Source: a virus. From it: a DNA stretch of 32,107 nt. Of the stretch, positions 5,781 to 22,656 are shown in pieces. The stretch lies in IMG/VR virus record IMGVR_UViG_3300043540_000294, positions 1-32,107 of that record. One strand, written 5' to 3'. Both the position numbers and the translations under genes were made by a program. The notes beneath the pieces are model-generated. The model made no database searches. It saw only the letters and a list, made by a program, of their open reading frames with translations, and was not told where the DNA came from. Each line of letters starts with the position of its first letter. Position 1 is the stretch's first letter.

Positions 5781-6663
5781 GCAATGCCATGCGGACGAAC
5801 ATGCCGTAGCGCAACTGCTTCCAAATTACGCACTGCGGCTTGTCCTTCACCCAATCCGGCAGTTCCCAGGTGCAGGGCATCGGGTGCATGATGATGCAGT
5901 CCTTCTTCAAACGGCCGAAACTCTCCCGGTTCAGTCCGTGATCGTCCTGGAGCTTAACGGCCCAGGGTCCGGCCATTTCGTCGTCCCAGCGTTCGGTCTG
6001 TGGCCGAGTCAGGTATAACACGTCGGCACGGGCGAGCATGGCGTCTCGTTCCTGTTTGTTCGACGCCATCTCAAATTGGTGCGGGTGATATAAAGGCGGC
6101 AGTTGTAGGCCGGACGGGCTGGAGCAATATAAATCCACGTCATAGTGGTCCAGCAGCGTGATAAGGGAGTGGATCGTCCGGGCGTGTCGCAGGTCGCCGT
6201 CGAACATGATCTTCAGACCGTCGATGGTCCGCTTTTCTTCCTGAATCGTGAACAGGTCCAAAAGAGCCTGGGTGGGATGCTCGCCGGCCCCATCACCGCC
6301 GCTAATGACCGGCACGGACGAGGCCCCGACCGCCTGTTGGATATCCATGTCCTGGGAGGTCCGAGCGACAATCACGTCAACGTACTGGCTGATGGTACGG
6401 ATCGTGTCCTTGAAACTTTCACCTTTCTTCATGGAGGATAGATCGACGGCCGGGAAGTTGATGACCTCGCCACCCAGACGCTTCATGGCAGCTTCAAAGG
6501 AGACACGGGTGCGGGTGGATGGCTCAAAGAATAGGCTGGCCATCACCTTGCCCCGCAGGTGACGCTTCTGGCCGGTCTTGGCCTCGTGCATGTAGTACCG
6601 GGCCTTGTCGAAAATCGGGTTGACCTTCTCACGGTCAAAATCGAGACAGGTAGTGACGTGCAT
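5719..6663 (-). CDS. pyrB: Aspartate carbamoyltransferase catalytic chain
   Basis: 314 residues, the normal length for the ATCase catalytic chain, which joins carbamoyl phosphate to aspartate in the first committed step of pyrimidine synthesis. Visible motifs: carbamoyl-phosphate loop STRTR (49-53), the 80s loop SSMKKGES with the Lys that reaches the neighbouring subunit (76-83), R101, HPTQ (129-132), DGDLRHAR (155-162) and the 230s loop TRPQTER (219-225). The HPLPR motif is HPMPC here (260-264), losing an Arg. The C-terminal helix GMFVRMALLRLAC is typical. I start at 6663 (GGAG site) because the longer frame runs through its promoter. No regulatory pyrI chain is adjacent, so it probably works as an unregulated trimer. 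Confidence 0.9.
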   Translation of the reverse strand: MHVTTCLDFDREKVNPIFDKARYYMHEAKTGQKRHLRGKVMASLFFEPSTRTRVSFEAAMKRLGGEVINFPAVDLSSMKKGESFKDTIRTISQYVDVIVARTSQDMDIQQAVGASSVPVISGGDGAGEHPTQALLDLFTIQEEKRTIDGLKIMFDGDLRHARTIHSLITLLDHYDVDLYCSSPSGLQLPPLYHPHQFEMASNKQERDAMLARADVLYLTRPQTERWDDEMAGPWAVKLQDDHGLNRESFGRLKKDCIIMHPMPCTWELPDWVKDKPQCVIWKQLRYGMFVRMALLRLACRREITVERPAGVLQD

Positions 6664-9308: not shown

Positions 9309-9723
9309 ATGCCTCAGAAGGTGCCGACGCCGGAGGAGATGGAGAAGCTACAGCGCAAGGACTTGGCGCCGCAGATTGACGAGTTCCTGGAGTTATGTCT
9401 GCGGGCCATCCGCAAGAAACACAACGCCAACACCAACGCTCACGTCGCCGTGCCGTGCAAGGAGTTCTCGCCGTGCCGTGCAAGGAGTTCTCGCCGTGCC
9501 GTGCAAGGAGTTCTCGCCGTGCCGTGCAAGGAGTTCTCGCCGGCCGTGCAAGGAGTTCTCGCCGGCCGTCGTGGAAGCCGTGCAAGAGATGTTGGTGAAG
9601 AAAAATTGGGACTGCACGGCTACGGGCGACGGAACGCACCTGCACATCAAGCGGAAGTACGCAAAGCCGAAACCGGCGAAGGCGACCTCCAGCAGCAGCT
9701 ATGGTGGACCCTGGGACCGATGA
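9309..9723 (+). pseudogene. Small unknown gene frameshifted by a 23-bp tandem repeat expansion
   Basis: The 5' part (MPQKVPTPEEMEKLQ...) starts behind a very strong GAGGAGGAGG site. The 3' part (VVEAVQEMLVKKNWDC ... SSSSYGGPWDR, stop 9723) lies in another frame. Removing 91 bp of repeated sequence between the first and last PCKEFSP copies restores one smooth protein of about 105 residues. Its stop overlaps the kinase ATG as ATGA, the usual coupling in this cluster. As it stands, translation from 9309 leaves this frame and reads on into the kinase frame, predicting a 342-residue fusion. This could be a broken gene, a phase-variable switch or an assembly error in the repeat. Confidence 0.7.
9447..9560 (+). 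repeat. Tandem repeat, four 23-bp units plus one 22-bp unit
   Basis: Units start at 9447, 9470, 9493, 9516 (each 23 bp, identical, GCCGTGCCGTGCAAGG...) and 9539 (22 bp, one G/T step lost). Because 23 is not a multiple of 3, each added or lost unit changes the reading frame downstream. There are no spacers between units, so it is not a CRISPR array. Confidence 0.95.
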
Positions 9724-13694: not shown

Positions 13695-15143
13695 CTAGAA
13701 ATCGAGGGCTTCCTTGACGATAACCTCGTGGCCCTCGTCTCCCAGAATTTTCACCCGCTTGTCGGAGTGCTTCTCCAGGTATTCGTTGATGCGGAAGATG
13801 AAGTCGTAGTAGTGGAGGATTTCTTTATCGTCGGCGGTACGCAGCCCACGGCCCATGCGCTGGACGATCTGGTGTTCCGCCTGACCTCCCGCCGCATTGA
13901 TGAGGTTGTGGACGAAGACGTTGATGCCGGTGTTGAAGATGCCCTGGGTGGCGATGGCAACCACGTCGCCCGTCGCCCGCTTCAACTGGTGGATGACGTG
14001 CTTGCGGCTCTCGTCGTTATCCTTGCCCTGGACCCATAGGCTGCCAGGAATCATGTTATTCAGGGCGTCCCCGTGGCTGAGTCGTTCGACCAGGATGAGG
14101 GTGCGGCCTTTGAGTTTCTTGACAAGGCGGCAGACGATCTCGTGGAAGTGGTAGGACTCAGCGATACCGTGGGTCACGGCATCCATGTAGATGTCGTAGG
14201 GTATCTGCGGCTCCAGGATCGGGTAGAAGACGCAGCGGGACTTGCTGAGCCGGCCACGCTCCTGAAGCTCCTTGGTCGTGATGATGCCGCTCTTGGTGGC
14301 ACTGGTCTTCATGACCGGGCCGAAGAACCCCTTGACGTTCCACTTCTGAACCGGGTCGTCCTCACCGAACTTGAACGGCGTGGCGGACATGGCCACCCGC
14401 ACGCTGGCAGCCGTCATCTTGCGATAGACCGCCATCGGCTTCTTGGACATCATGTCGTGGATTTCGTCCACGAAGAGTGCCCGGAACTTGGGCAGGAGCT
14501 TGACGATCTTGTGGATGGACTGAATGTTGGCGCAGGTGATGATATTCGGCTTGGCGGCGTTGGCCCATAAGGTGCCGACGTTCGGGAAGCCCCAATTGCT
14601 GATCTCTTCGTAGTTCTGCTTGGCAAGCTGGGTGCGGTTTTGCAGGACCAGGATCGGACAGCCGGGCGGCAGGGCCTTCATGATGGAAAGCATAATGAAG
14701 GTCTTGCCGGAGCTAGTCGGGGCGAAGATGATGCCCCGTTGGTGCTGGATGATCTTCTGGGCGAAATCCATCTGATAGTCTTCGAGCGTGATCGGCAGTT
14801 GGGGCGTGCCGTCCACCTGGGTCGCCGGGAGCCACTGGTTGAGGTATTGGCTGTCGATGGACTGGTGGCGCCACTGGACGAGATCACGGTCGTCTATCGT
14901 GTCGTATGGCTCGTTGAATTTGTTAAGGACTGCGAGAATTTCCGGGAGGATGCCGGTCAGGAAGCGGCCGTCCTCCTCCCGGAAGAAATTGTGATAGCCG
15001 TCCCACAGCCGCATTTTATAGCGACGGTTGTGGAAGTAGTTCCGTTCCCGAAAACGCAAGTGCTGGAACAGGACGTGCTTTAACTTGAGGTTATTGCTAA
15101 CCAACCAGCTATAGTCATTGCGCAGTTTGAGGACGGTCTTCAT
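13695..15143 (-). CDS. UvsW-like superfamily 2 helicase
   Basis: 482 residues. SF2 motifs in order: Walker A APTSSGKT (141-148), motif Ia LVLQNRTQLAKQ (165-176), DEIH box (226-229), SATP (253-256) and a late QRMGRGLRT arginine-finger motif VI. The N-terminal about 110 residues resemble the T4 UvsW DNA-binding head (NYFHNRRYKMRLWDGY). UvsW remodels recombination and stalled-fork intermediates and switches T4 from origin to recombination-dependent replication, so this phage may do likewise. A TATAAT lies eight bases before the ATG and there is no good ribosome site. Confidence 0.85.
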   Translation of the reverse strand: MKTVLKLRNDYSWLVSNNLKLKHVLFQHLRFRERNYFHNRRYKMRLWDGYHNFFREEDGRFLTGILPEILAVLNKFNEPYDTIDDRDLVQWRHQSIDSQYLNQWLPATQVDGTPQLPITLEDYQMDFAQKIIQHQRGIIFAPTSSGKTFIMLSIMKALPPGCPILVLQNRTQLAKQNYEEISNWGFPNVGTLWANAAKPNIITCANIQSIHKIVKLLPKFRALFVDEIHDMMSKKPMAVYRKMTAASVRVAMSATPFKFGEDDPVQKWNVKGFFGPVMKTSATKSGIITTKELQERGRLSKSRCVFYPILEPQIPYDIYMDAVTHGIAESYHFHEIVCRLVKKLKGRTLILVERLSHGDALNNMIPGSLWVQGKDNDESRKHVIHQLKRATGDVVAIATQGIFNTGINVFVHNLINAAGGQAEHQIVQRMGRGLRTADDKEILHYYDFIFRINEYLEKHSDKRVKILGDEGHEVIVKEALDF

Positions 15144-15529: not shown

Positions 15530-15866
15530 GTTGTAGGCCGGTCCAATAATCCGGCATGGGTTTGTTGCCTACGACCCGTGAATCGTAGATACGATAAACT
15601 TCGCCGCCGCTGAGCCGGATGTATTTGCCGATCCGGTAGCGGCGGGGCACCCGGCGGTGCCAGACCAGAGACAGACACTCCTCGTGTTCCTGAATGATGA
15701 CCAGAAAGCGGCGCTCGTCGGCCGGGATCGTGTCAATGATCTGGGTCACTTTCCAGTCGTGGTCCTCATCCCACTTGATGACGACCCCCTTGTAGACCGA
15801 GAAACTAGGCTTCCCTTCCTGCTCCATCTGCGGGAAGTCCCTCGGCCCGAACGTCGGCAGGAACAT
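15516..15866 (-). CDS. Unknown beta-rich protein, 116 residues
   Basis: Alternating strands with basic and aromatic residues (FSVYKGVVIKWDEDHDW, RRYRIGKYIRLSGGEVYRIY). The GGAGAAG ribosome site supports the start at 15866 even though it overlaps the synthetase gene by 62 bases. No family recognised. Confidence 0.65.
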   Translation of the reverse strand: MFLPTFGPRDFPQMEQEGKPSFSVYKGVVIKWDEDHDWKVTQIIDTIPADERRFLVIIQEHEECLSLVWHRRVPRRYRIGKYIRLSGGEVYRIYDSRVVGNKPMPDYWTGLQHERE

Positions 15867-17244
15867 CTTTCTTCTCCAAATGGAAGCGGATTCCGGGCAT
15901 GAAGACTTCGATGAAGGGCATCATCTCGTCAAAAATCCGCTTCAGATTACCGTTGATGGGCTTTTTCTTGGACTCCTCTATATGGTTATCACAAAAGTGG
16001 TGCCAGAAATAGGTGAATAACAGGTAGCCGGCCTCCTGGTAATTATGAACCTCAAAGGCGTTGATGATGCCCTGCTTCATCTCCGACCATTCTTTTTCGT
16101 GCCGCTCACTCGTGTTGGTATCGGGCCGCATGTCCAGGAAACGCTTGGCGTTCTTGATCTTGGTGACGTGCCGCTTGCCGGCGTCCATGACGGCCGGGTT
16201 GCAGCGGGTGTCGGTGCCGATGGTATTCTGGGCGGTCCAGAAGCGTACCCCGGCGGCACCATACTGCTCGATATACTGCTGTGGCGGGACGTAATTGCCG
16301 GCCGACTTGCTGATTTTGTGGCCGTCTTTGTCCAGGGCGTGGCCCGAAATAACAATGGCCTTCCAGGGTATCTGGTCGTTATGATAGAGGCTCTTGATGA
16401 TCGTGAACAAGGCCCAGGTCCGAATGATGTCGTGGGCCTGGAACCGCACATCGAAGATGGGGCACTGGAGACTCGGCTCCCAGATTCCTTCCTTCTGGTG
16501 GGCCAAGTGAGCATCTTCGCCCATCCAGGCAAGCTGGGGCGATAAGCTGGACGTGTGCCAGGTATCAAAGACGATGCCTTCCGGTTCGCCGGGGATCGGA
16601 ATGCCGAACTTGCGCTCCCGGCTGATGCTCCAGTCGTACTTGACATCATCGAGCCAGCGCAATAGGCGGTGCTTGTACATCTCGGGCTGCCAGACGATTT
16701 GTTCCACGGCCTGGCGGATGCGGGGAATCTGGTCCTTGACCTTGATGAACCAGCCCTCGCCGGTGCGGACCTCTACCTTGGCGCCCGAGCGCTCGTAGCA
16801 GCCGTTGGCGTCGATCTCGTTCTGCGAGACGGACGTTTTCATTTTCGGGCAGTAGAAGTATTCCGTCTCGGCTTTATAGGCGTAGCCCTTCTCCACGAGG
16901 TCGTGGAAGGACTTCTGGGCCAGTTTGATGGCATTCTCGCTGAACGTCGAGTAGTGGTGCTGGCTATAACCCATCTCGATCTGCTGGAAGAACAGGCTAT
17001 AGCCAAGCGACTGCTCGTGCGAGAAGTCGATGATGTCCTTTTGGTCCTTGATGCCCTGCTGGTGGGCCAGCTTTTCGGTGGGCAGGCCGTTGTTGTCGTA
17101 GCAGAAGGGGTAGACGAGTTCTTCCCCTTTGATCTGCCGGTGGTAGCGGGCAATAAAGTCCATGTGGCAGTACGAAAAGACGTGCCCCATGTGCAGGAAG
17201 CCCGAAATAGTGGGCGGCGGAACGTCGATTAAGAATTTGGACAT
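15805..17244 (-). CDS. Miniature valyl-tRNA synthetase-like class I aminoacyl-tRNA synthetase
   Basis: About 479 residues from the ATG at 17244; an ATG at 17256 would add four. Signatures, numbered from the longer form: PPPTISGFLHMGH with the HIGH-type motif HMGH (22-25), YDNNGLPTE (53-61) as in archaeal-type ValRS, WSISRERKFGIPIP (209-222), FDTWHTSS (230-237) and the KMSKS-type KISKS (314-318). A normal ValRS is about 850-950 residues. Here the whole CP1 editing insertion is missing between the zinc-like YCPKMKTSVSQNEID segment and the catalytic WFIKVKD segment, and the anticodon-binding tail is short. ValRS is the best family match. It would charge tRNA without proofreading, or serve another aminoacyl-transfer role. 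Confidence 0.8.
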   Translation of the reverse strand: MSKFLIDVPPPTISGFLHMGHVFSYCHMDFIARYHRQIKGEELVYPFCYDNNGLPTEKLAHQQGIKDQKDIIDFSHEQSLGYSLFFQQIEMGYSQHHYSTFSENAIKLAQKSFHDLVEKGYAYKAETEYFYCPKMKTSVSQNEIDANGCYERSGAKVEVRTGEGWFIKVKDQIPRIRQAVEQIVWQPEMYKHRLLRWLDDVKYDWSISRERKFGIPIPGEPEGIVFDTWHTSSLSPQLAWMGEDAHLAHQKEGIWEPSLQCPIFDVRFQAHDIIRTWALFTIIKSLYHNDQIPWKAIVISGHALDKDGHKISKSAGNYVPPQQYIEQYGAAGVRFWTAQNTIGTDTRCNPAVMDAGKRHVTKIKNAKRFLDMRPDTNTSERHEKEWSEMKQGIINAFEVHNYQEAGYLLFTYFWHHFCDNHIEESKKKPINGNLKRIFDEMMPFIEVFMPGIRFHLEKKDVPADVRAEGLPADGAGREA

Positions 17245-17684
17245 ATTGCTTGCCATTCGCCATCGTTATAGACCCAGCCGGCAGAGGTTTGCCAGTCGGA
17301 GTCGATGGTACGAGGCTTGGGTTTATTGGGTTGGGGTCGATCTTGCCAGACTTCCATGTCATATTCGTAGGAGACAATAATCTCCATGTCACGGTGGCTG
17401 AGGTCGCTCCAATTCAGGCGCATCTCGCCAGTAATACGGTTAAGTGTACCGCCGATTATATATGGTTCGAGGCCAATATCGGGAGGCTGCGGAATGACGC
17501 AGCCCTGGGCCGTGATATAGAAATTCTGACCGGGGATTCCTCGGTTGACCCGTCCGGTCAATGTGCCTGCCGTGACCGGGGTGTGTTCAAGCATGTGGTA
17601 GCTTTGAAGCGGTGTGCTACCCTGTGACTTGTGACACACTTCGTTTTGAACAAAAGCCGTGCTGTACCAGTAATTCAAGTTCAT
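17229..17684 (-). CDS. Unknown protein, 151 residues, next to tRNA-Leu
   Basis: Starts MNLNYWYSTAFVQNEVC only three bases after the tRNA-Leu discriminator base. Longer readings would overlap the tRNA. Beta-rich middle (GQNFYITAQGCVIPQPPDIG), Trp-rich tail (DWQTSAGWVYNDGEWQAIC). No ribosome site is possible outside the tRNA, so translation may depend on tRNA cleavage or a leaderless mode. Virion-like in style but unassigned. Confidence 0.65.
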   Translation of the reverse strand: MNLNYWYSTAFVQNEVCHKSQGSTPLQSYHMLEHTPVTAGTLTGRVNRGIPGQNFYITAQGCVIPQPPDIGLEPYIIGGTLNRITGEMRLNWSDLSHRDMEIIVSYEYDMEVWQDRPQPNKPKPRTIDSDWQTSAGWVYNDGEWQAICPNS

Positions 17685-17686
17685 AG

Positions 17687-17793
17687 TGCCCAGGGCGGGA
17701 CTCGAACCCGCACGGGAGTTGCCTCCCAAGGGATTTTAAGATTATCCGCTATCAGGCGGTTTCCCTTGTGTCTACCGATTCCACCACCTGGGC
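17687..17793 (-). tRNA. tRNA-Leu(UAA) with a 21-nt insert beside the anticodon loop
   Basis: Acceptor GCCCAGG pairs with CCTGGGC, discriminator A, no encoded CCA. D-arm GTG...CAC, long class II variable arm (GGGAG-GCAA-CTCCC) and T-arm GCGGG-TTCGAGT-CCCGC are all intact. Anticodon stem AGGGA/TCCCT and loop CTTAAAA (anticodon TAA, + strand 17736-17738) are standard. However, 21 extra nt (17741-17761) lie between stem and loop and can form CCGC/GCGG. The 107-nt length equals a normal tRNA-Leu plus this insert. It could be an unusual mini-intron, an anticodon-nuclease-resistant form or a broken tRNA. Confidence 0.85.
17741..17761 (-). other. 21-nt insertion in tRNA-Leu(UAA)
   Basis: Minus-strand insert AACCGCC...GGATAAT with a 4-bp CCGC/GCGG stem and a 6-nt loop, placed between tRNA positions 31 and 32. 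It is far too short for a group I intron. Confidence 0.75.
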
Positions 17794-22570: not shown

Positions 22571-22573
22571 AAG

Positions 22574-22656
22574 TGGCTTCGCCGGGACTCGAACCCGGAC
22601 GCCCTTTCGGGCACATGGTCCTAAGCCATGCGTGTCTGCCGTTCCACCACGAAGCC
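22574..22656 (-). tRNA. tRNA-Leu(UAG)
   Basis: 83 nt class II tRNA: acceptor GGCTTCG/CGAAGCC with discriminator A, anticodon stem around loop CTTAGGA (anticodon TAG, + strand 22621-22623), variable arm GTGCCC-GAAA-GGGC, T-arm CCGGG-TTCGAGT-CCCGG. No CCA is encoded (CTTATG follows). Its structure is fully canonical, unlike the other tRNA-Leu here. Confidence 0.95.

Follow-up and report, generated by a model that had tools for sequence, protein, structure and literature searches.

A 21-nucleotide insert in the anticodon loop of a phage tRNA-Leu(UAA) gene as a probable short intron

Introduction

The tRNA-Leu(UAA) gene of the phage fragment studied here raises the question of what 21 extra nucleotides are doing in the anticodon loop of a tRNA, and whether they are removed from its transcript. 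To our knowledge, bacterial tRNA introns are self-splicing ribozymes, and splicing of tRNA introns by proteins is documented for archaea and eukaryotes but for neither bacteria nor their viruses. An earlier note on this DNA had considered a new kind of mini-intron, a form that hides the anticodon from anticodon nucleases, or a decayed tRNA. A family of anticodon-loop inserts of 10-22 nt that turn over rapidly within conserved phage tRNAs would imply a splicing activity so far overlooked in phages or bacterial cells, and it bears on the reason for which phages encode tRNAs and numerous RNA ligases.

The tRNA-Leu(UAA) gene and its insert

The window, by which we mean the whole stretch of DNA analysed, is a 32,107-base virus fragment from IMG/VR (IMGVR_UViG_3300043540_000294) with replication genes of phage type, namely a DnaB-like helicase, a family A DNA polymerase and a Dda-like helicase. 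It also holds a 23-nt tandem repeat (TCGCCGTGCCGTGCAAGGAGTTC) in about five copies at 9445-9559. The tRNA-Leu(UAA) gene lies on the minus strand at 17793-17687 and, as the earlier note had said, is intact in its other parts by cloverleaf reading and by its match to the Rfam tRNA model (42.5 bits, E 5.9e-6), from which it departs in an anticodon loop of 28 instead of 7 nt. Its 5' part (17762-17793, minus strand; positions 1-31 by Rfam RF00005 alignment and cloverleaf pairs) comprises the 7-bp acceptor stem GCCCAGG/CCTGGGC, followed by TG, the D arm GTGG-AATCGGTAG-ACAC, A26 and the 5' strand of the anticodon stem. The 3' part (17687-17740, minus strand; cloverleaf reading and Rfam) runs from the loop CTTAAAA, with the anticodon UAA at 17738-17736 on the same strand, through the long variable arm TGGGAGGCAACTCCCGT and the T arm GCGGG-TTCGAGT-CCCGC to A73; CCA is not encoded. 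Between them lies the proposed intron AACCGCCTGATAGCGGATAAT (17741-17761, minus strand), delimited by excision enumeration and by alignment with an insert-free orthologue, without which the anticodon stem AGGGA/TCCCT closes the loop CTTAAAA.

Run on the window, ARAGORN missed this gene and reported only a tRNA-Leu(UAG) at 22573-22656 (minus strand; also found with Rfam), which is normal, has no insert and served for comparison. Genes of this kind are probably under-counted, because they can escape the usual tRNA finders, as this one escaped ARAGORN. Downstream of tRNA-Leu(UAA), separated from it by one small gene, lies a class I aminoacyl-tRNA synthetase-like gene (15805-17256, minus strand; Pfam PF00133; the linkage is seen in contigs L081, L198 and L199). 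Its product of about 480 aa is ValRS/MetRS-like by Pfam and common to these phages. TTA codons make up 28 of 7674 in selected window ORFs; they are rare, so the need for a tRNA-Leu(UAA) is modest, which counts against an intron in a functional tRNA.

Excision enumeration left only two insertion points that yield U33 and the anticodon UAA, 31/32 if position 32 is C and 32/33 if it is A. The placement between stem strand and position 32 that had been proposed earlier fits the first of these; the second is the alternative. When the anticodon region of the window was shuffled, an equally canonical arm arose in 22 of 200,000 trials. The small hairpin described in the earlier note is present as CCGC-CTGATA-GCGG at 17759-17746 (minus strand; RNA fold and the layout shared with relatives), so that in the insert the stem of 4 bp and its loop of 6 nt have 2 nt before them and 5 nt after them. 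By itself this hairpin is weak evidence, as at least 4 bp are found in 14% of shuffles; across nine inserts of at least 17 nt, hairpins as strong as those observed are commoner than in shuffles with a Fisher-combined p of 1.2e-5, which is approximate because the inserts are partly related.

Orthologues with and without the insert

Of the relatives found, G003 (343 kb), which is syntenic with the window, and G006 (56 kb) stand nearest to it; G014 (259 kb) is more distant. The tRNA-Leu(UAA) of G003 reads CGGGA, a 10-nt insert TTTAAGTCGG and CTTAAAA TCCCG; that of G006 reads GAGGA, a 13-nt insert TTAAGCCAGGCAA and CTTAAAA TCCTC; and that of G014 reads CAAGA C, a 22-nt insert AAGCGACAGTCATCGCTATGAA and TTAAAA TCTTG. 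In G003 and G006 the insert-bearing gene stands just upstream of the class I synthetase gene of the window, and in G003 it is the only UAA isoacceptor found, the other leucine genes being CAA, CAG, GAG and UAG. A further phage, G010, carries a tRNA-Leu(UAG) with CATGA, a 21-nt insert CCACGGCCAAAAAGCCGCCAA and TTTAGGA TCATG, identical in two contigs from different metagenomes. Insert-free counterparts exist as well: the tRNA-Leu(UAA) of G012 (CAGGA TTTAAAA TCCTG) lies upstream of the same helicase gene, and those of contigs L466 and L467 likewise lack an insert. Neither viral contigs nor genome contigs gave a match to patterns, exact or gapped, that stay close to the tRNA of the window. Among candidates that were discarded, the apparent 29-nt insert of L128 is really a partial tRNA-Leu fused to a complete one, L100 is truncated, and L064 and its fellow matches in the same pattern search are due to chance.

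The alignment of homologous phage tRNAs that the earlier note had recommended shows that the sequence of the insert is not conserved while its site and the exons are: the site is the same in the tRNA-Leu(UAA) genes of the window, G003, G006 and G014, and their inserts are mutually unalignable. In an alignment of leucine tRNAs from the window and its relatives, insert-free ones included, cloverleaf pairs are intact in 99.3% of cells, and none of 500 shuffles was as good. Nine cloverleaf pairs have changed on both sides, three of them among the five pairs of the anticodon stem, and compensatory changes keep this stem perfectly paired in the insert-bearing orthologues. TTAAAA is identical in all tRNA-Leu(UAA) genes compared. 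Such retention of pairing and TTAAAA, with inserts that differ, is not what one would expect of a pseudogene or a pure decoy. The decayed tRNA of the earlier note is thus disfavoured, and the random decay in relatives that it had named as evidence against its own reading is not what the relatives display, since they keep both stem pairing and TTAAAA.

Recurrence in other isoacceptors and other kinds of insert

A layout of 1-3 nt, a stem of 4-5 bp, a loop of 4-6 nt (mostly 6) and a further 4-5 nt recurs in the tRNA-Leu(UAA), tRNA-Arg(UCU) and probable tRNA-fMet(CAU) of G014 (the last assigned from its loop and a 1-72 mismatch), in tRNA-Phe(GAA) of G012, tRNA-Leu(UAG) of G010 and tRNA-Lys(CUU) of G001. 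Excision restores a canonical arm in these window-type inserts. Common descent or a common recognition element is suggested by the hairpin loops of four of them (CAGGCA, CAGTCA, AAGTCA or CAGACA) and by the ending ATGAA in two. Counting against an intron, insertion points vary from 31/32 to 36/37 across isoacceptors, some being ambiguous because of short repeats, and no splice-site sequence is shared. The tRNA-Val(UAC) of G014 has a 22-nt insert without a clear hairpin by strict count.

A second family, of 53-57 nt, lies within the 5' strand of the anticodon stem in four tRNAs of G001 and two relatives in G014 (L038:871-995, 6212-6336 and 14780-14904; L039:14759-14888; L548:10160-10290; L550:3490-3616). 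Its pattern is AGUCUCAGC...UCC-UNCG-GGA-AUGC...GUUGGGAUUACAU; in G001 an outer stem AGUCUCAGC/GUUGGGAUU encloses a UNCG hairpin, and in G014 the outer stem is altered to AGUUUCAGC/GUUGGAACU with pairing kept. The exact motif was not found elsewhere in viral contigs, and in G001, where more than one excision or an unusual loop would fit, its exact splice sites are uncertain. This family has no homology to the window insert, but with it the phage group is seen to have several kinds of tRNA insert.

Further candidates that we place in no class are W01 365524-365647 and some large inserts in G012 and G014. For some other inserts of large phages, excision gives no canonical arm, which counts against the intron reading. 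Several apparent families of phage tRNA-like genes (L232/L275, L258/L280, L251/L302, L238/L272 and L256/L276/L278) keep the acceptor, D and T arms intact, but their anticodon arm has been replaced by one that excision never makes canonical. Phage tRNA-Ile(UAU) genes on unrelated contigs have a long variable region with a hairpin whose loop is CAGATTA, CTGATTA or similar (L228, L230, L231, L233, L242, L249, L250, L267, L282, L283, L285, L292, L300, L303 and L039:7217-7314). We set aside the possibility that one mobile element accounts for both the window hairpin CGCCTGATAGCG and the variable-arm hairpin GCGCCTGATTAGCG of tRNA-Ile(UAU) in G001, the latter belonging to this wider class with its CAGATTA/CTGATTA loop. 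In bacterial genome contigs, 11-12-nt inserts near tRNA position 37 with the loop CTGTAGA (L376:7541-7604 and L393:1571-1633) are either artefacts or real.

A control scan of excision

As a control, viral and genome contigs were scanned with a pattern that couples one common D-arm type with additional length ahead of the T arm, and an arm was called canonical on excision at a score of at least 15; the resulting figures describe the matches listed for that one D-arm type and are not frequencies. Among the matches listed from genome contigs archaea dominate, and 92% are canonical on excision as against about none in shuffles, while among those listed from viral contigs the figure is 4%. Of the good viral candidates among the matches listed, 50 of 67 have an anticodon arm that no excision restores. 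On the same scale the window, G003, G006 and tRNA-Lys of G001 reach 15.9, and the window is thereby grouped with true introns. Most tRNA-like genes of the generic scan were not counted as introns since they are not canonical on excision; by this measure most other odd phage tRNA-like genes are a different class.

Splicing machinery

At gathering thresholds, Rfam gave only tRNA matches in the window and no group I intron. This and the length of 21 nt (10 nt in G003) bear out the earlier judgement that the insert is far too short for a group I intron, and self-splicing is improbable because orthologous inserts go down to 10 nt. The predicted folds of the anticodon arm contain no bulge-helix-bulge (3-nt bulge, 4-bp helix, 3-nt bulge), and window-type inserts have 0-3 predicted base pairs between exon and insert. 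No PF01974 domain was found in G001, G003, G006, G008, W01 or W02, whereas control archaea match, and no RtcB (PF01139) was found in eight phage records; a host could supply the endonuclease and may have an RtcB, and absence from the window and several relatives means little because these are fragments. As far as these tests reach, group I and archaeal-type introns are excluded. RNA ligases of PF09414 occur in G001 (3), G002, G003 (2), G014, G009, G015, W01 (5) and W02 (2), those of PF09511 in G001 and G015, and the two ligases examined match phage RNA ligase families. Ligases of jumbo phages are usually explained as repairing tRNA cleaved by the host (PMC7824862), and hence their presence is compatible with splicing without proving it.

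Weighing the explanations

The insert at its site turns over fast within a conserved tRNA, has insert-free counterparts and recurs in its layout; the finding holds up, the phenomenon is conserved, and we see here neither a one-off error nor evident decay. We consider it probable that the 21 nt are a short intron, spliced from a functional phage tRNA-Leu(UAA). The pre-tRNA would be transcribed together with the insert, a putative protein endonuclease of phage or host, guided by sequence or structure, would cut on both sides of the hairpin, and an RNA ligase, for example of the ATP-grasp type present in several relatives, would join the halves into the 7-nt loop CUUAAAA; both the excision and the enzymes responsible are what we infer from comparing sequences. 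Of the three options in the earlier note, the mini-intron is thus the best supported, with exons kept, inserts changing and excision canonical, but it is not wholly unprecedented given the tRNA introns of Lak phages. A wider proposal, plausible but tentative, is that a clade of large phages might have its own protein-based tRNA splicing, with an endonuclease unrelated to those of archaea and eukaryotes that would remove 10-22-nt hairpin introns from several isoacceptors, perhaps making pre-tRNAs immune to host anticodon nucleases.

It is rather unlikely that the insert is never removed and that the RNA acts as a stable, leucine-chargeable, non-decoding decoy for anticodon nucleases or in another role outside translation. 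Charging by the LeuRS of E. coli is independent of the anticodon; phages do keep tRNA-like molecules whose anticodon arm cannot be restored (the 50 of 67 good candidates among the matches listed), and in G003 and G006 the insert is predicted to pair with the anticodon and hide it (TTAAG with CTTAA), a pairing not predicted for the window. Nevertheless, four tRNA-Leu(UAA) orthologues with unalignable inserts do not differ in the 3' half of the loop, and stem and 7-nt loop are exactly canonical after excision, which a non-decoding RNA has no reason to keep. An unspliced tRNA that decodes UUA with the hairpin protruding at the 5' side of the loop, possibly resisting anticodon nucleases, would agree with the position of the insert and the intact 3' stack 33-38, but it is very improbable: the anticodon is predicted to be paired in G003 and G006, the inserts of other isoacceptors interrupt the very anticodon, and loops of 17-28 nt lie far beyond the functional enlarged anticodon loops known to us.

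That a random hairpin insertion struck a decaying tRNA gene is improbable. Phage tRNA genes are frequently lost and L128 contains a truncated tRNA-Leu relic, but here the stem changes are compensatory, all tRNA elements are present, and the same site is used in three further phages and in another leucine isoacceptor. The chance of a sequencing or assembly artefact is slight indeed. Such things occur, as in a bacterial tRNA of a metagenome-assembled genome that is interrupted by the adapter-like GACGCTCTTCCGATCT (L389:4282-4351), but the insert site is the same in independent contigs from different metagenomes, and the tRNA has exactly the same sequence in L469 and L470.

Comparison with known systems

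In the part of the literature covered, we found no description of 10-22-nt hairpin inserts in phage tRNAs. The closest precedent is the tRNA introns of Lak megaphages, which Devoto et al. (2019, PMC6784885) described as enigmatic; on account of such introns, tRNAs were called with eukaryotic settings in PMC8346664. Like those introns, the inserts lie in tRNA genes of huge phages that are otherwise intact, have no known splicing mechanism and vary in presence, with insert-free counterparts in relatives. In the clear case from Lak-A1 (500004-500167) the anticodon loop runs to about 100 nt and encloses a nested tRNA-like element, whereas the window clade has hairpin inserts of 10-22 nt at 31/32 to 36/37; the tRNA regions of Lak-A1 examined showed no hairpin insert of 21 nt.

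The introns of archaeal and eukaryotic nuclear tRNAs, removed by EndA/SEN with RtcB or a tRNA ligase, are similarly short, lie in the anticodon loop, leave a canonical arm on excision and sometimes pair with the anticodon. In contrast to them, the window type lacks the canonical bulge-helix-bulge, the phages searched have no endonuclease homologue or RtcB, and the site is not fixed at 37/38. Group I introns of bacterial tRNA-Leu(UAA) share the tRNA and the anticodon loop, but they are self-splicing, longer than 200 nt and located at 34/35, as opposed to 10-22 nt at 31/32 or 32/33 here. Finally, T4-like tRNA repair by Pnkp and RNA ligase and the phage tRNAs with mutated anticodon loops (PMC10264068) also involve phage tRNAs, the anticodon loop and RNA ligases; in the known cases host nucleases cleave the tRNA or single positions are changed, whereas the inserts described here are encoded in the tRNA genes themselves.
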